The notes beneath the pieces were generated by a model that had not been told where the DNA came from, searched no databases, and saw only the letters and a program-made list of their open reading frames with translations. Source: a virus. From it: DNA of 22,075 nucleotides. The stretch is from positions 1 to 22,075 of the IMG/VR virus record IMGVR_UViG_3300022934_000225, one strand, 5' to 3'. Both the position numbers and the translations under genes were made by a program. This document shows positions 16,170 through 21,943 of the stretch, in pieces; positions within the stretch are counted from its first letter, which is position 1; each line of letters opens with the position of its first letter.

Positions 16170-18362
16170 ATGTCAGAAGCATATTTTAACAAGGTCGTCG
16201 ATGGAGCAGTAGGCGATGTCATCGCGTCCATGAAGGGCGGCAGAAACGAAAACCTAAACAAAGCAGCATTCTCAATCGGCAGGCACGCGCATATGTCTCC
16301 GGCCAACATTGACGCGGCCATCCTGCAACTGCACGCGGCGGCGCGTAAGATCGGGCTCAAGGATTTCGAGATAAAGTCAACTATTGGCAGCGGCTTTAAA
16401 CGCGGAGGCGAAAACCCAAAGCAGCTCGAGAACTCGGATATACAGCCGTATATACCAAGTGAGCTGGAGCGCTTGGTTACACGTCTGGCTAGTAAAGACT
16501 TAATCATACGCGACGAGGAAAGCCGCAGAGACAAAGTAAAGAAGGCGCAGGAGGCGTGGGAGCGCGCTGTGCCGATCACAAGAGAAAACTTAGACGCGGT
16601 AAAGCCTGCGCTGCTTTACCTCAACTCACGCGGCCTCAGAGCGAGCGCAGCGGTCAACGTGGCCAAGTTTAGCCCTAACGTCTACGACGGGCCGGCTATT
16701 GTCTTCGCGGCGACAACTCCGGAGGGCGAAATCGAGGGCATCCAGAGCGTGCTCATAACGCCAGAGGGAAAGAAGCGCGAGGTTAACGGCATTGCAAAAT
16801 ACAGTAGGGGCGTCATTGCCGGAAATGTAATGCAAATCGGCGAAACGCAAGGCGAAAAGCCAATCGTCATTGTCGAGGGGCCGGAGGACGCGCTCAGCAT
16901 ACGGCAGGCAGCCAAAGACGATGCGGCGGTGATCTGCACCTTCGGTAAGGCGGGAATGGCAACGTACACGCCTCCACGCGCCTCAGACGTGACGATATGC
17001 GCAGACCCTGACCTCGACATCGAAAAATGCGTCGACGTCCTCAAGGGAGATGGGAGCACGCAGGTGCACGTCATTCGCTTCGACCGGCTAGACGCGGAAA
17101 ACGTCAAAGACGCAAACGACTATTTACGTGAGGCTGGCGAAACAAAGTTGCGTGAGGCGCTGGCCACTGCGAAACTCTATGAAGAGGCCAAGCAGATACA
17201 GATGGAGACGGACTATCAGTGGCCAACTGAGTTCGAGGTAATCGACCCATCGTTAATTCCACGCCGGCGCTGGGTGTACGGCAAGCACTACATCCGCGGA
17301 TACGTCAGCGTACTGGCGTCGCAGGGTGGCATCGGTAAGACGTCCATGCAGCTTGTAGAGGGCGTGGGCGTAGCGATCGGACAAGCGCTCCTAGAGGAGG
17401 AGGTGCACGAGCAGTGCAACGTCTGGATCATCAACGGCGAGGATCCGCTGGAGGAAATGCAGCGCCGCCTCGCGGCCGTCTTTATGCACTATGACATCAA
17501 GCCAGAGCAAATACGTGGGCGCCTGTTTCTCGATGCGGGGCGTGACCTCGACATACAATTTGCGAAGCAGACGCGTGACGGTATTCTGACCGACCAGAAA
17601 AAGCTGGAGCTTATGGTGGAGCGCATAAAGAAAAACAAGATAGGGTTGGTCATCATTGACCCGTGGGTTGGCTTCAACGACATCAACGAAAACGATAACG
17701 TCGCCATGAACGCGGCGGTCGCAGCCGCTCGCTGGATCGCAGACCAAACCGACGCCGCGGTCGTGCTAACGCACCACATCCGCAAGACAAACGGCGAAGA
17801 CGCAACAATCGACAGCGTCCGCGGCGCCGGATCGTTGATCGGTGCAGCGCGCGCAGCCCGCGTCATCAATCGTGTTAGCCAAGAAGACGCGATGAAGCTA
17901 GGCGTGTCGGAGCATGAGGCGCTCGGCATATTCCGCGTTGACGACGGCAAGGCAAACCTCGCACCGCCGGCCGCAAAGGCGCTGTACCGGCGTATGCACG
18001 GGGTGGAGCTGCCAAACGGTGAATACGTGGGCGTCTGCGTGCCGTTCAAAATGCCAGACTTGTTCGACGGGGTGAGCGCCAGAAACGCGATGGAGGTGCA
18101 GCGTCTCATCGGGGCGGCCGCGGATCGCGGAGAGCCAATGCGCGCAGATGCACGCGCCAAGTCGTGGGCGGGCAATGCGGTGGCCGTCGTGCTCGACCTA
18201 GACTTGGACAAGCAGCACGAGAAGGCGCGCGCAAAGGCGATCCTGAAGAAGTGGATCGAGACAAACGTGCTTAAGGTGGAAGAGTGGCCAGATAAACGGC
18301 AGGGGCGGGACGTGCAGTGCGTCGTCGTCGGGGAATGGATTAACGCGTCGGAGGTAGGGTGA
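16170..18362 (+). CDS. TOPRIM primase-RepA-type helicase (730 aa)
   Basis: Bifunctional replication protein. Residues 1-80 (RNENLNKAAFSIGRHAHMSP, GLKDFEIKSTIGSGFKRG) resemble the PriCT-type helical domain. 'ALLYLNSRGL' near 148 begins the primase core. The TOPRIM domain has Glu236 (IVIVEGPEDAL) and Asp279-Pro-Asp281 (ICADPDLD). The helicase half has Walker A G386-G-I-G-K-T-S392, 'VWIINGEDPLEEMQRRLAA' (RepA/AAA_25 signature) and Walker B with Asp497 (GLVIIDPW), then 'VVLTHHIRK'. It would make primers and unwind the fork. There is no N-terminal zinc ribbon. The largest replication gene here; no DNA polymerase gene is seen beside it. The stop shares a base with the next ATG. Confidence 0.9.
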   Translation: MSEAYFNKVVDGAVGDVIASMKGGRNENLNKAAFSIGRHAHMSPANIDAAILQLHAAARKIGLKDFEIKSTIGSGFKRGGENPKQLENSDIQPYIPSELERLVTRLASKDLIIRDEESRRDKVKKAQEAWERAVPITRENLDAVKPALLYLNSRGLRASAAVNVAKFSPNVYDGPAIVFAATTPEGEIEGIQSVLITPEGKKREVNGIAKYSRGVIAGNVMQIGETQGEKPIVIVEGPEDALSIRQAAKDDAAVICTFGKAGMATYTPPRASDVTICADPDLDIEKCVDVLKGDGSTQVHVIRFDRLDAENVKDANDYLREAGETKLREALATAKLYEEAKQIQMETDYQWPTEFEVIDPSLIPRRRWVYGKHYIRGYVSVLASQGGIGKTSMQLVEGVGVAIGQALLEEEVHEQCNVWIINGEDPLEEMQRRLAAVFMHYDIKPEQIRGRLFLDAGRDLDIQFAKQTRDGILTDQKKLELMVERIKKNKIGLVIIDPWVGFNDINENDNVAMNAAVAAARWIADQTDAAVVLTHHIRKTNGEDATIDSVRGAGSLIGAARAARVINRVSQEDAMKLGVSEHEALGIFRVDDGKANLAPPAAKALYRRMHGVELPNGEYVGVCVPFKMPDLFDGVSARNAMEVQRLIGAAADRGEPMRADARAKSWAGNAVAVVLDLDLDKQHEKARAKAILKKWIETNVLKVEEWPDKRQGRDVQCVVVGEWINASEVG

Positions 18363-19114
18363 TGAAAAGCGTAATAGCAGTTTGGTTCTCTTGTGGCGCG
18401 GCAAGCGCAGTGGCGGCGCACTTAACAATAAAGAAGTACGGCGACTTATGCGACGTGCGTGTCATCAATAATCCCGTGGCCGAGGAGGACGAGGACAACA
18501 GACGCTTCCTGCACGACGTCGAGGATTGGATTGGCCAAAAGATTGAGATATGCACGAACGAAAAGTTTCCGAGCGCATCGGCAGTGGACGTGTGGGCGAA
18601 ACGCAAGTTTATGTCTGGCGTTGCCGGCGCACCATGCACACTCCTGTTAAAGAAGGAGGCGAGGCAGCAATGGGAGGCGAAAAACCATGTCGACTTTCAT
18701 GTGTTAGGCTTCACCTCGGAGGAAGAGCAGCGGCATGAGAGGTTCATACGCACTGAACGTGAGAACGTATTGCCAGTGCTAATCGATGCTCAGTACACAA
18801 AGTTAGATTGCTACCAGCTTTTACGCGCTAACGGGATAAAGCCGCCGCGCGTTTACGAGATGGGCTATCCCAACGCAAACTGCATAGGATGCGTGAAGGC
18901 ATCGTCTCCGACATACTGGAACCACGTCAGAAAGGTGCACCCAGACGTGTTCGAGGAGCGTGCCAGTCAATCACGAGAGCTTGGTGCAAAGTTAGTGCGT
19001 GTAAACAATCAGCGTATATTCTTGGACGAGCTGCATCCGGATGCAATTGGAAAGCCAATGAAGAATTTGGACTTCGAGTGCGGCTTGTTCTGCGAGGAGT
19101 GGAAAGAAGAATGA
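18362..19114 (+). CDS. PAPS reductase/ATP-pyrophosphatase-like protein (250 aa)
   Basis: N-terminal PP-loop-like 'VIAVWFSCGAASAVAAHL' (Ser10-Cys-Gly-Ala-Ala-Ser15), a variant of the SGGxDS loop. Then come 'DVRVINNPVAEEDEDNRRFL' and 'SASAVDVWAKRKFMSGVAGA', which recall adenine-nucleotide alpha-hydrolase proteins of phages. The C-terminal half has Cys174-x2-Cys177 (NCIGCVKASS) and Cys240-x3-Cys244 (ECGLFCEEW), a possible metal or Fe-S site. GGAGG at 18350-18354 supports the ATG at 18362. Proposed roles range from sulfur transfer to DNA modification (DndC-like), but none is shown here. The reductase name is a family label only. Confidence 0.75.
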   Translation: MKSVIAVWFSCGAASAVAAHLTIKKYGDLCDVRVINNPVAEEDEDNRRFLHDVEDWIGQKIEICTNEKFPSASAVDVWAKRKFMSGVAGAPCTLLLKKEARQQWEAKNHVDFHVLGFTSEEEQRHERFIRTERENVLPVLIDAQYTKLDCYQLLRANGIKPPRVYEMGYPNANCIGCVKASSPTYWNHVRKVHPDVFEERASQSRELGAKLVRVNNQRIFLDELHPDAIGKPMKNLDFECGLFCEEWKEE

Positions 19115-19350: not shown

Positions 19351-19772
19351 CTAGACCCATTTACGAAACCGCCGAAGACCGCAACAACGAACGCCGCCTC
19401 GCGGCAAAGATCGAAAGGCATTACGGGTGCATCCTGTCAAAGATGCCAATGAAGCTGAGCCTAGACTTCATGGCGATGCGCGACGGAAAAGCGGTCGCGT
19501 TCATCGAAGCCAGACAACGCAAGATCGCGATGAACACGTATCCGACGTACATGCTGTCGCTCTACAAGGCAATGCAGGCGCGCGCGCTCACGATGACGAC
19601 GGGGCTGCCGTGCTTCCTCGCCGTGCAGTGGACGGACAAAGCCGGCATCGCGAAGCTGCCGCCAGCGCACGAGGAGATGCACGTGGAAATGGGCGGCACG
19701 ACGCGACGAGACGATCCACAAGACATCGAGCCTATGGTACACTTCGACATAGCTAACTTTAAGGAGCTGTGA
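19347..19772 (+). CDS. VRR-NUC-like nuclease (141 aa)
   Basis: Helical start (ETAEDRNNERRLAAKIERHY), then a PD-(D/E)XK-type core: 'LSLDFMAMRDGKAVAFIEAR' with Asp40 and Glu54, followed by Arg56 where a Lys is usual (E-x-K). Then 'NTYPTYMLSLYKAMQARALT' and 'LPCFLAVQW', which match the helix and strand after the active site in phage relatives of this family. The Lys-to-Arg change at the active site may reduce or alter activity. Four-base overlap with the previous gene; AAGGAG near its end serves the next gene. Likely a DNA-processing accessory in the replication block. Confidence 0.7.
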   Translation: MTRPIYETAEDRNNERRLAAKIERHYGCILSKMPMKLSLDFMAMRDGKAVAFIEARQRKIAMNTYPTYMLSLYKAMQARALTMTTGLPCFLAVQWTDKAGIAKLPPAHEEMHVEMGGTTRRDDPQDIEPMVHFDIANFKEL

Positions 19773-19774
19773 CA

Positions 19775-20029
19775 ATGACACTGCCAATGCCAATACGTGA
19801 AATCGAAGAAGACGAAAACAAGCTGGAGCTTGGACGCATTGTATGGGACGAGGAAATCGGAGGCGCCGCGATTGAGTGGTGCGCAGATGAGATGCCAATG
19901 ATGTCATCAGCGGGTGATGACGTGGCATTCGTGATGGAGGTGCTTCAAGGCATCGATACCGACGTGATGATGGCCAAGGCGCTCAATTTGGCGTTGTTGA
20001 GAGAGGGGTCGAATGGCACTTTGCATTAG
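19775..20029 (+). CDS. Small acidic protein, unknown (84 aa)
   Basis: AAGGAG (19761-19766) is 8 nt before the ATG at 19775, so I prefer it to the GTG at 19769. The product is acidic: LPMPIREIEEDENKLELGRI, then IEWCADEMPMM, DDVAFVMEVLQGIDTDVMM, and a short Leu-rich end. No motif recognised. It closes the replication block and is followed by the repeat-rich non-coding region. Confidence 0.65.
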   Translation: MTLPMPIREIEEDENKLELGRIVWDEEIGGAAIEWCADEMPMMSSAGDDVAFVMEVLQGIDTDVMMAKALNLALLREGSNGTLH

Positions 20030-20178
20030 TTCCTCAGTTTCCTCAGTTGAACTGAGGTAGAGTGAGGAAGTGAGGTAAAAGAGGCCTAAATTAGTTCCTC
20101 CTCAGTTGTTACGTATATATACGTAACTGAGGAGGTAACTTAGGACTAAGGTAAAAGTAACTGAGGAAAGTGGAGGAG
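20026..20178. repeat. CTGAGG/CCTCAG dyad cluster (candidate origin, operator or packaging site)
   Basis: A gene-free stretch with six exact copies of CTGAGG or its complement CCTCAG (20032, 20041, 20052, 20100, 20127, 20161) and two more TGAGG (20063, 20071). Two large dyads: CCTCAGTT-G-AACTGAGG (20041-20057), and CCTCCTCAGTT (20097-20107) paired with AACTGAGGAGG (20125-20135) around a 16-base palindrome TACGTATATATACGTA (20110-20125). 'AGGTAAAAG' also occurs twice. The arrangement is like iterons plus an AT-rich unwinding core, or an array of operators. It lies between replication genes and the terminase block. Confidence 0.8.
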
Positions 20179-20185
20179 TTTTGAC

Positions 20186-20779
20186 ATGGCAAAGAAGGGA
20201 AAGCGTTCGCTGGCTAACTATAGGGAAGTGAAGGCGAGAGGGACGTTGAATAGTGAGGGGACGAAGATCAGTGCTGGCGTGTGGGGTCAGTTGCGTCCGC
20301 TCGATGAAAAGGCAAGAGAGAAGATCGCGAAGTGGGGTGACACGTTGCCGGACTTAGTGTCGCCGGATTTAGCTGGACGCTTCGAGGCGGCTTACGAGGC
20401 GCTTAAAGAGCGTGTGGATGCAGATGACGTGGTCGGCACCAATCAGATCGCAACGCAGCTTATGAGGGCGTGGGACGTCTTGGAGAAGGCAGCGGAGGAT
20501 GCAGGGCACAAGCCGCTGCCGCCGCACGCGTACTGCGTGGAGATCGATGACGTGATCGTGTGCTTCGCATTGCACGGGTGGGCGGAGCTGCGGAAGAAGT
20601 ATCCAAGCTGGATCGTGTACAGCTTCGAGGACGCTGCACGCGTGATCAGATTTGACTGGACGGAGACTTTCCTGAACAATGCATTCAACGCGTTTCCGAA
20701 TGCAAAGGTAACGCGGATGGTGCGTGACGGAGACGATCGCATCAACTGGGATTTAGGTGGAGATGAAATACCATGGTAA
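20186..20779 (+). CDS. Unknown phage protein with SSB-like acidic tail (197 aa)
   Basis: GGAGGAG just upstream supports the ATG at 20186. Residues 1-20 are basic (MAKKGKRSLANYREVKARG). The middle is helical (KAREKIAKWGDTLPDL; GTNQIATQLMRAWDVLEKAA), followed by a beta-rich part (HAYCVEIDDVIVCFALHGWA, YPSWIVYSFEDAARVIRF). The last residues, NWDLGGDEIPW, are an acidic-aromatic tail like that of SSB proteins. Family not recognised. It is the first gene after the dyad cluster and overlaps the next gene by 7 nt, so it may act at that site or in DNA metabolism. This is inference. Confidence 0.72.
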   Translation: MAKKGKRSLANYREVKARGTLNSEGTKISAGVWGQLRPLDEKAREKIAKWGDTLPDLVSPDLAGRFEAAYEALKERVDADDVVGTNQIATQLMRAWDVLEKAAEDAGHKPLPPHAYCVEIDDVIVCFALHGWAELRKKYPSWIVYSFEDAARVIRFDWTETFLNNAFNAFPNAKVTRMVRDGDDRINWDLGGDEIPW

Positions 20780-21632: not shown

Positions 21633-21838
21633 TTGGCGAATCCACGCATCGGCGCAGCACCGCGCATGCGTGCGCGCGGATAACAGAACGAGCGTTCAAT
21701 TACAATCGCTTGACACTACATCTTGTGCCATTGCGTTATTTGCATGGCTCGCTGGCGCGTGGCATCGCGCAAACGCCTTATTTATATGCCGCATGCAAGA
21801 AGTGGAATTTAACATAATCGACATTATCGGAGTGACCT
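21633..21838. other. Intergenic region between terS block and terL
   Basis: No convincing gene. It holds an 18-nt perfect alternating purine/pyrimidine run (21661-21678), a perfect -35 hexamer TTGACA (21710-21715) without a good -10, and an AT-rich stretch near 21780-21830. An open frame 21622-21948 crosses it, overlaps both neighbours and follows a CAGGAG. Its composition and codon use (CCC) are unlike nearby genes, so I do not call it. Confidence 0.5.
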
Positions 21839-21943
21839 ATGCACTCAGCGCAAATGACCCCCCCCTTCGATTCGGCGGGCGGGTGCAAATGCAAAGGACG
21901 TCCCCACGCACCCCCACCCCCGTACCCCGTAAACAGGTGTTAA
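21839..21943 (+). CDS. Possible 34-residue Cys/Pro-rich peptide before terL
   Basis: GGAG (21829-21832) lies 6 nt before an ATG at 21839. The frame stops one base before the terL ATG. The peptide MHSAQMTPPFDSAGG, then CKCKGRPHAPPPPYPVNRC has a Cys-x-Cys pair and a Pro run. The C-tracts of this region give Pro codons CCC, rare in neighbouring genes, so the frame could be fortuitous. The binding site and exact fit before terL argue for it. Low confidence. Confidence 0.35.
   Translation: MHSAQMTPPFDSAGGCKCKGRPHAPPPPYPVNRC
21902..21928 (-). promoter_or_regulatory. G-quadruplex-type motif upstream of terL
   Basis: Four C-tracts on the + strand: 21902-21905 (4), 21911-21915 (5), 21917-21921 (5), 21925-21928 (4), with loops of 5, 1 and 3 bases. 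The minus strand therefore has four G-tracts fitting the G3+N1-7 rule. A further C8 run is at 21858-21865. It lies 17-43 nt before the terL ATG. Confidence 0.6.

Follow-up and report, generated by a model that had tools for sequence, protein, structure and literature searches.

What does the dense cluster of short inverted repeats between the replication and terminase genes of this uncultured phage do, and which protein reads it? In the window, i.e. the whole stretch of 22,075 nucleotides analysed here, the array is located between an 86-aa ORF (19769-20029) and a 197-aa ORF (20186-20779), and the genes around it run on a single strand, toward DUF6378 and then an Sf6-type small terminase (TerS). 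A longer gap with C-rich runs is present at 21633-21943, just 5' of the apparent large terminase start, as a possible place for a packaging signal.

The repeat array and its layout in relatives

An earlier note on the window described six copies of CTGAGG/CCTCAG, two dyads and a palindromic core, and all of these are borne out. The 11-bp arms of one dyad pair 20097-20107 with 20125-20135, the second dyad is also present, and the core, GTTACGTATA directly followed by TATACGTAAC, is AT-rich in the window. Four near-copies beyond the six occupy the gaps between them. The features of the array are given below, with offsets counted from the palindrome centre.

20032-20037, minus strand: iteron 1, CTGAGG, offset -86, a position filled in 35 of 52 representative relatives
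20041-20046, minus strand: iteron 2, CTGAGG, offset -77
20052-20057, plus strand: iteron 3, CTGAGG, offset -66
20062-20067, plus strand: iteron 4, near-copy GTGAGG, offset -56; its N base co-changes in relatives
20070-20075, plus strand: iteron 5, near-copy GTGAGG, offset -48
20100-20105, minus strand: iteron 6, CTGAGG, left arm of the central dyad, with the outward extension CCT (20097-20099) also co-changing
20108-20127, no strand: palindromic core GTTACGTATATATACGTAAC, candidate opening site
20127-20132, plus strand: iteron 7, CTGAGG, right arm of the central dyad, with the outward extension AGG (20133-20135)
20139-20144, plus strand: iteron 8, near-copy CTTAGG, offset +21
20146-20151, plus strand: iteron 9, near-copy CTAAGG, offset +28
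20161-20166, plus strand: iteron 10, CTGAGG, offset +43
20186-20779, plus strand: 197-aa protein, function not assigned; the array lies directly upstream in 52 of 52 representatives

In a Markov-1 simulation, 1 of 150 windows contains six copies of any one hexamer inside 145 nt. Compared with shuffled sequences, folding of the central arm has z = -6.9. The cluster is not due to chance, because dozens of relatives keep the array with fixed spacing.

On the whole, about 200 IMG/VR relatives have 4-10 hexamer copies at the same intergenic site, with a layout usually fixed around the palindrome. A scan with the 197-aa protein gives 72 of the IMG/VR relatives, and the upstream region, where available, has the same layout as the window with other words, such as AACTGAGG, AACTGTGG, AACTGCGG, GGTGCGG, AGTGAGG and AGTGGGG. 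Further loci were added by scans with the primase-helicase, and 52 representatives with less than 97% identity were retained. The general word is (C/G)TG-N-GG, where N is A, T, C or G depending on the lineage; copies within one phage nearly all carry the same word, while between lineages all switch jointly, unpaired single iterons together with paired ones. The layout consists of two inverted copies, three direct copies, an inverted pair about the palindrome and then direct copies, at offsets of -86, -77 and -18 (inverted) and -66, -56, -47/48, +9/10, +21 and +43 (direct). Each of the 52 representatives has 4-10 exact copies, which surround a palindrome that is AT-rich in most cases; across lineages its palindromy is conserved and its sequence is not. 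At least five of the nine offsets are filled in 39 of the 52, and the other 13, with two or three filled, are all from the clade with Thr711 (within L132-L163), in which the central spacing differs and the left five copies largely stand at the usual one. The cluster ends at most 67 nt from the start of the 197-aa gene in 52 of 52 and lies 0.2-1.7 kb 3' of the primase-helicase stop. Thus repeat number and spacing, whose comparison among relatives the earlier note had proposed as a check, are conserved.

Several single loci are also noticeable. In contig IMGVR_UViG_3300028388_000646 (L024, identical to L081) the left half of the cluster is absent, by deletion or by an assembly fault. A PAPS-reductase-like gene lies between primase-helicase and array in the window (18359-19114) and in few relatives only. 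Contigs G001, G003, G004, G006, G007 and G008, of 35-38 kb, have identical ends of 59-141 nt, which suggests complete circular or terminally redundant assemblies. A search of GTDB genomes yielded no relative and hence gives no hint of a host. In the phage isolate collection there is no close relative, and the matches, all weak, are confined to the helicase part; for the strongest of them, Rhizobium phage RHph_X2_26, the 11 kb examined contain no array of this kind.

Covariation of the repeat word with two residues

The variation of the word across lineages identifies the partner protein of the array as the primase-helicase, whose features are as follows.

16170-18362, plus strand: 730-aa primase-helicase, the proposed initiator, with DUF7146 and Toprim_3 (primase part), an AAA_25 RecA-type ATPase and a predicted C-terminal winged helix
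18075-18341, plus strand: predicted C-terminal winged-helix origin-recognition domain (residues ~636-724; AlphaFold2)
18153-18155, plus strand: Arg662 codon
18300-18302, plus strand: Gln711 codon, predicted wing tip

The AAA_25 match has E = 1.3e-34 (Pfam), and residues 375-612 match RepA of RSF1010 (PDB 1g8y) with E = 1.8e-8, in agreement with a RecA-type RepA fold. No Pfam family covers the C-terminal domain. From an alignment of 41 sequences, AlphaFold2 predicts helix-helix-helix-strand-wing-strand, with mean pLDDT of 83-91 per 10-residue block over model residues 51-130 (pLDDT 36 for the C-terminus predicted without an alignment), and places Gln711 at the tip of the wing and Arg662 immediately before helix 2. 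Foldseek finds winged-helix proteins among its matches, which are weak (best E = 0.01).

When the primase-helicase alignment is sorted by word class, two tracking positions emerge. Residue 711 predicts N (Gln with A, Asp with C, and Ala, His or Thr with T), and the first base of the word can be told from residue 662 (Arg with C, Gln with G). The rule was fixed in writing before further relatives were fetched, and it held in the first new set, including the previously unseen word GTGTGG; His was absent from the rule as originally written and was learnt from this set, and Thr as the partner of T is found in one clade only. Every later locus follows the rule except one lineage with N=G, which was itself known beforehand. 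Predictions made ahead of time for another held-back set are correct for both residues in 32 of 32 loci, at least four of these being contigs already sampled.

To be strict about relatedness, each of the 52 representatives was also predicted solely from sequences less than 80% identical to it. In this cross-clade test residue 711 gives N correctly in 38 of 39 cases (51 of 52 at a looser cut), the next best among 488 variable columns reaching 71%, and residue 662 gives the first base in 52 of 52, the next best column reaching 92%; no other column of the protein comes close in predicting the word. The one case that fails is the GTGGG[GA] lineage (L068-070 and L109), whose words, GTGGGG and GTGGGA, were assigned by hand. 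This lineage keeps Gln711 and has Ala at residue 708, a position occupied by Asp, Glu or Ser elsewhere, so that residue 711 cannot be the whole of the code.

Among six neighbouring proteins, the best columns for N reach 67% in TerS, 73% in the 197-aa protein, 67% in RuvC, 75% in the exonuclease, 70% in the SSB-like protein and 83% in DUF6378 (18 rows), while the PAPS reductase, PDDEXK and 86-aa proteins had too few representatives for this test. Of the binding candidates listed in the earlier note, the primase-helicase therefore stands, its residues tracking the word, while TerS and the 197-aa protein, in which no residue tracks it, do not. A tree that uses only the columns as far as residue 640, and so leaves out the C-terminal domain, has 13 changes of N and 13 of residue 711, together with 5 of the first base and 5 of residue 662. 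The independent-pairs test gives 9 of 9 for N=T (p = 0.004) and 6 of 6 for N=C (p = 0.03); for N=A (4 of 5) and the first base (5 of 5) the number of pairs is too small. Overall, the residue-word covariation supports the view that the repeats are recognised by their cognate initiator.

The origin reading and its rivals

From these comparisons we consider the cluster to be, very probably, the replication origin of the phage, an iteron array that would be recognised by its own primase-helicase. The earlier note had likewise suggested an origin, and the covariation together with the conserved layout lends support to that suggestion. Its proposed GC-skew check gives no such indication: over ten genomes of 35-38 kb the skew never changes sign, and in most of them it shows no more than a local peak close to the cluster.

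As for the mechanism, the predicted winged helix would bind every iteron as duplex DNA, with residue 711 at the wing tip reading the variable base N and residue 662 reading the first base of the word. All copies change jointly because one protein has to read every copy. The iterons, 9-11 bp or about one helical turn apart, and the two inverted central sites may serve as nuclei on which RecA-type helicase rings assemble. These rings would then open the palindromic core by melting or extruding it, after which the Toprim part would prime and a host polymerase extend. In the ten 35-38 kb genomes no match is found to the PolA, tyrosine integrase, ParB or protelomerase families, and the absence of PolA, the only polymerase family searched, fits reliance on the host polymerase.

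The covariation of the sequences is evidence of recognition; it would be just as strong for an autoregulatory operator recognised by the same domain, and by itself it cannot tell operator from origin. The array is moreover directly upstream of the 197-aa/DUF6378/terS operon, which it could control as an operator read by the winged helix of the primase-helicase, with replication starting elsewhere. We regard this as unlikely: a helicase that carries a site-specific DNA-binding domain of its own would naturally serve in initiation, no sigma-70-like promoter is seen at the array in a consensus scan, and the ten full-size contigs hold no second comparable iteron cluster.

The other rivals are less probable still. 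With an Sf6-type TerS encoded 0.85 kb downstream, the array might be the pac site bound by this protein, and the earlier note had pointed to packaging as well; none of the TerS residues tracks the word, however, the best column giving 67% for N against 98% for the primase-helicase column in what is an indirect test, and we give this reading very little weight. Hardly more credible is a role of the words as priming sites that the primase domain would read in single-stranded DNA. The covarying protein is indeed a primase-helicase, but the covarying residues belong to the predicted C-terminal winged helix, outside the Toprim part, and the words stand in both orientations around a palindrome at helical-turn spacing. 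Inverted repeats about a palindrome, with strong predicted folding, would also suit a plasmid-type partition site, a hairpin-telomere site or a structured RNA, all of which we find highly improbable. The missing integrase (tyrosine recombinase), ParB and protelomerase matches, 0 of 10 genomes, argue against the partition and telomere forms, and the co-change of unpaired iterons with paired ones is a further point against this group of readings. In an Rfam search for such an RNA no match was credible, the matches being below threshold.

Known systems and switching of the word

The replication origin proposed here has parallels in several known systems. The alpha protein of phage P4 has a primase of the AEP type, a helicase of the SF3 type and a winged-helix origin-binding domain in one polypeptide; the chain studied here has the same three kinds of part, the winged helix being predicted, while its Pfam domains are of other types. 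RSF1010 has a separate iteron-binding protein, RepC, and a primase, RepB'. Its RepA is the protein matched above, whereas functions split over separate proteins there are all in one protein here. In SaPI Rep helicases the C-terminal domain reads iterons downstream of the protein's own gene, and the SaPI/SCCmec Rep/Cch initiators, with iteron origins, are helicases carrying DUF927 or Primase_Cterm/D5-type modules (PMC7581432). This resembles our case, where the covarying residues 662 and 711 lie in the predicted C-terminal domain; unlike there, Pfam finds AAA_25 (RecA-type), Toprim_3 and DUF7146 without DUF927 or D5/Primase_Cterm, and variable genes occupy the 0.2-1.7 kb between the primase-helicase gene and its putative origin downstream. 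In PLE RepA of Vibrio cholerae satellites, the initiator DNA-binding domain and the origin iterons also covary, and only cognate pairs work (PMC8263062); there, whole domains are swapped among few types, while here single residues track single bases and the switches appear to occur in place. For the iteron-related domain of geminivirus Rep, amino acid-base pairs were inferred comparatively by Arguello-Astorga and Ruiz-Medrano 2001, as far as the account in PMC12548392 describes it, which is the same kind of residue-base inference between initiator and iterons, made on an unrelated protein of ssDNA plant viruses with rolling-circle replication. The possibility of a new type raised in the earlier note holds for a variant only, a self-recognising iteron origin as such being already known. 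Within a limited literature search, in which an earlier description of the phage group may have been missed, what is new is the combination of Toprim, RecA-type motor and predicted winged helix in one chain, and the clean tracking of single bases by single residues.

Some close pairs show how the word changes. L117 (GTGAGG) and L197 (GTGTGG) have flanks 94-99% identical and primase-helicase DNA 94-95% identical; about 10 word bases differ, and most spacers match. This looks like a change in place and not a wholesale replacement, with recombination as the alternative. In the L197 array, 3' of the primase-helicase, one GTGCGG site stands among the GTGTGG copies and is probably left over from an older word. 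L165, with Gln711 and GTGAGG, is nested in the Thr711/GTGTGG clade, and it differs widely from L163 across the array. It is conceivable, although we hold it only tentatively, that the group runs naturally diversified, mutually exclusive origin-initiator types, set by two residues against two base positions, whose whole arrays of about ten sites have been switched in place repeatedly within near-identical flanks, the driver being conflict, e.g. with co-infecting relatives, satellites or origin-directed nucleases.

The initiator-origin match is readable from sequence alone, because two residues of the primase-helicase predict letters of all the repeats. An initiator and its probable origin can thus be assigned without culture, for uncultured tailed phages without a close relative in the isolate collection searched. 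The analysis gives a nearly one-residue/one-base recognition rule, in which the Gln-A and Asp-C pairings are familiar from DNA-binding proteins. It also gives a natural record of a protein and about ten binding sites changing specificity jointly, a long-standing question which is now testable by point mutants, and cognate origin-initiator types could be typed straight from metagenomes.
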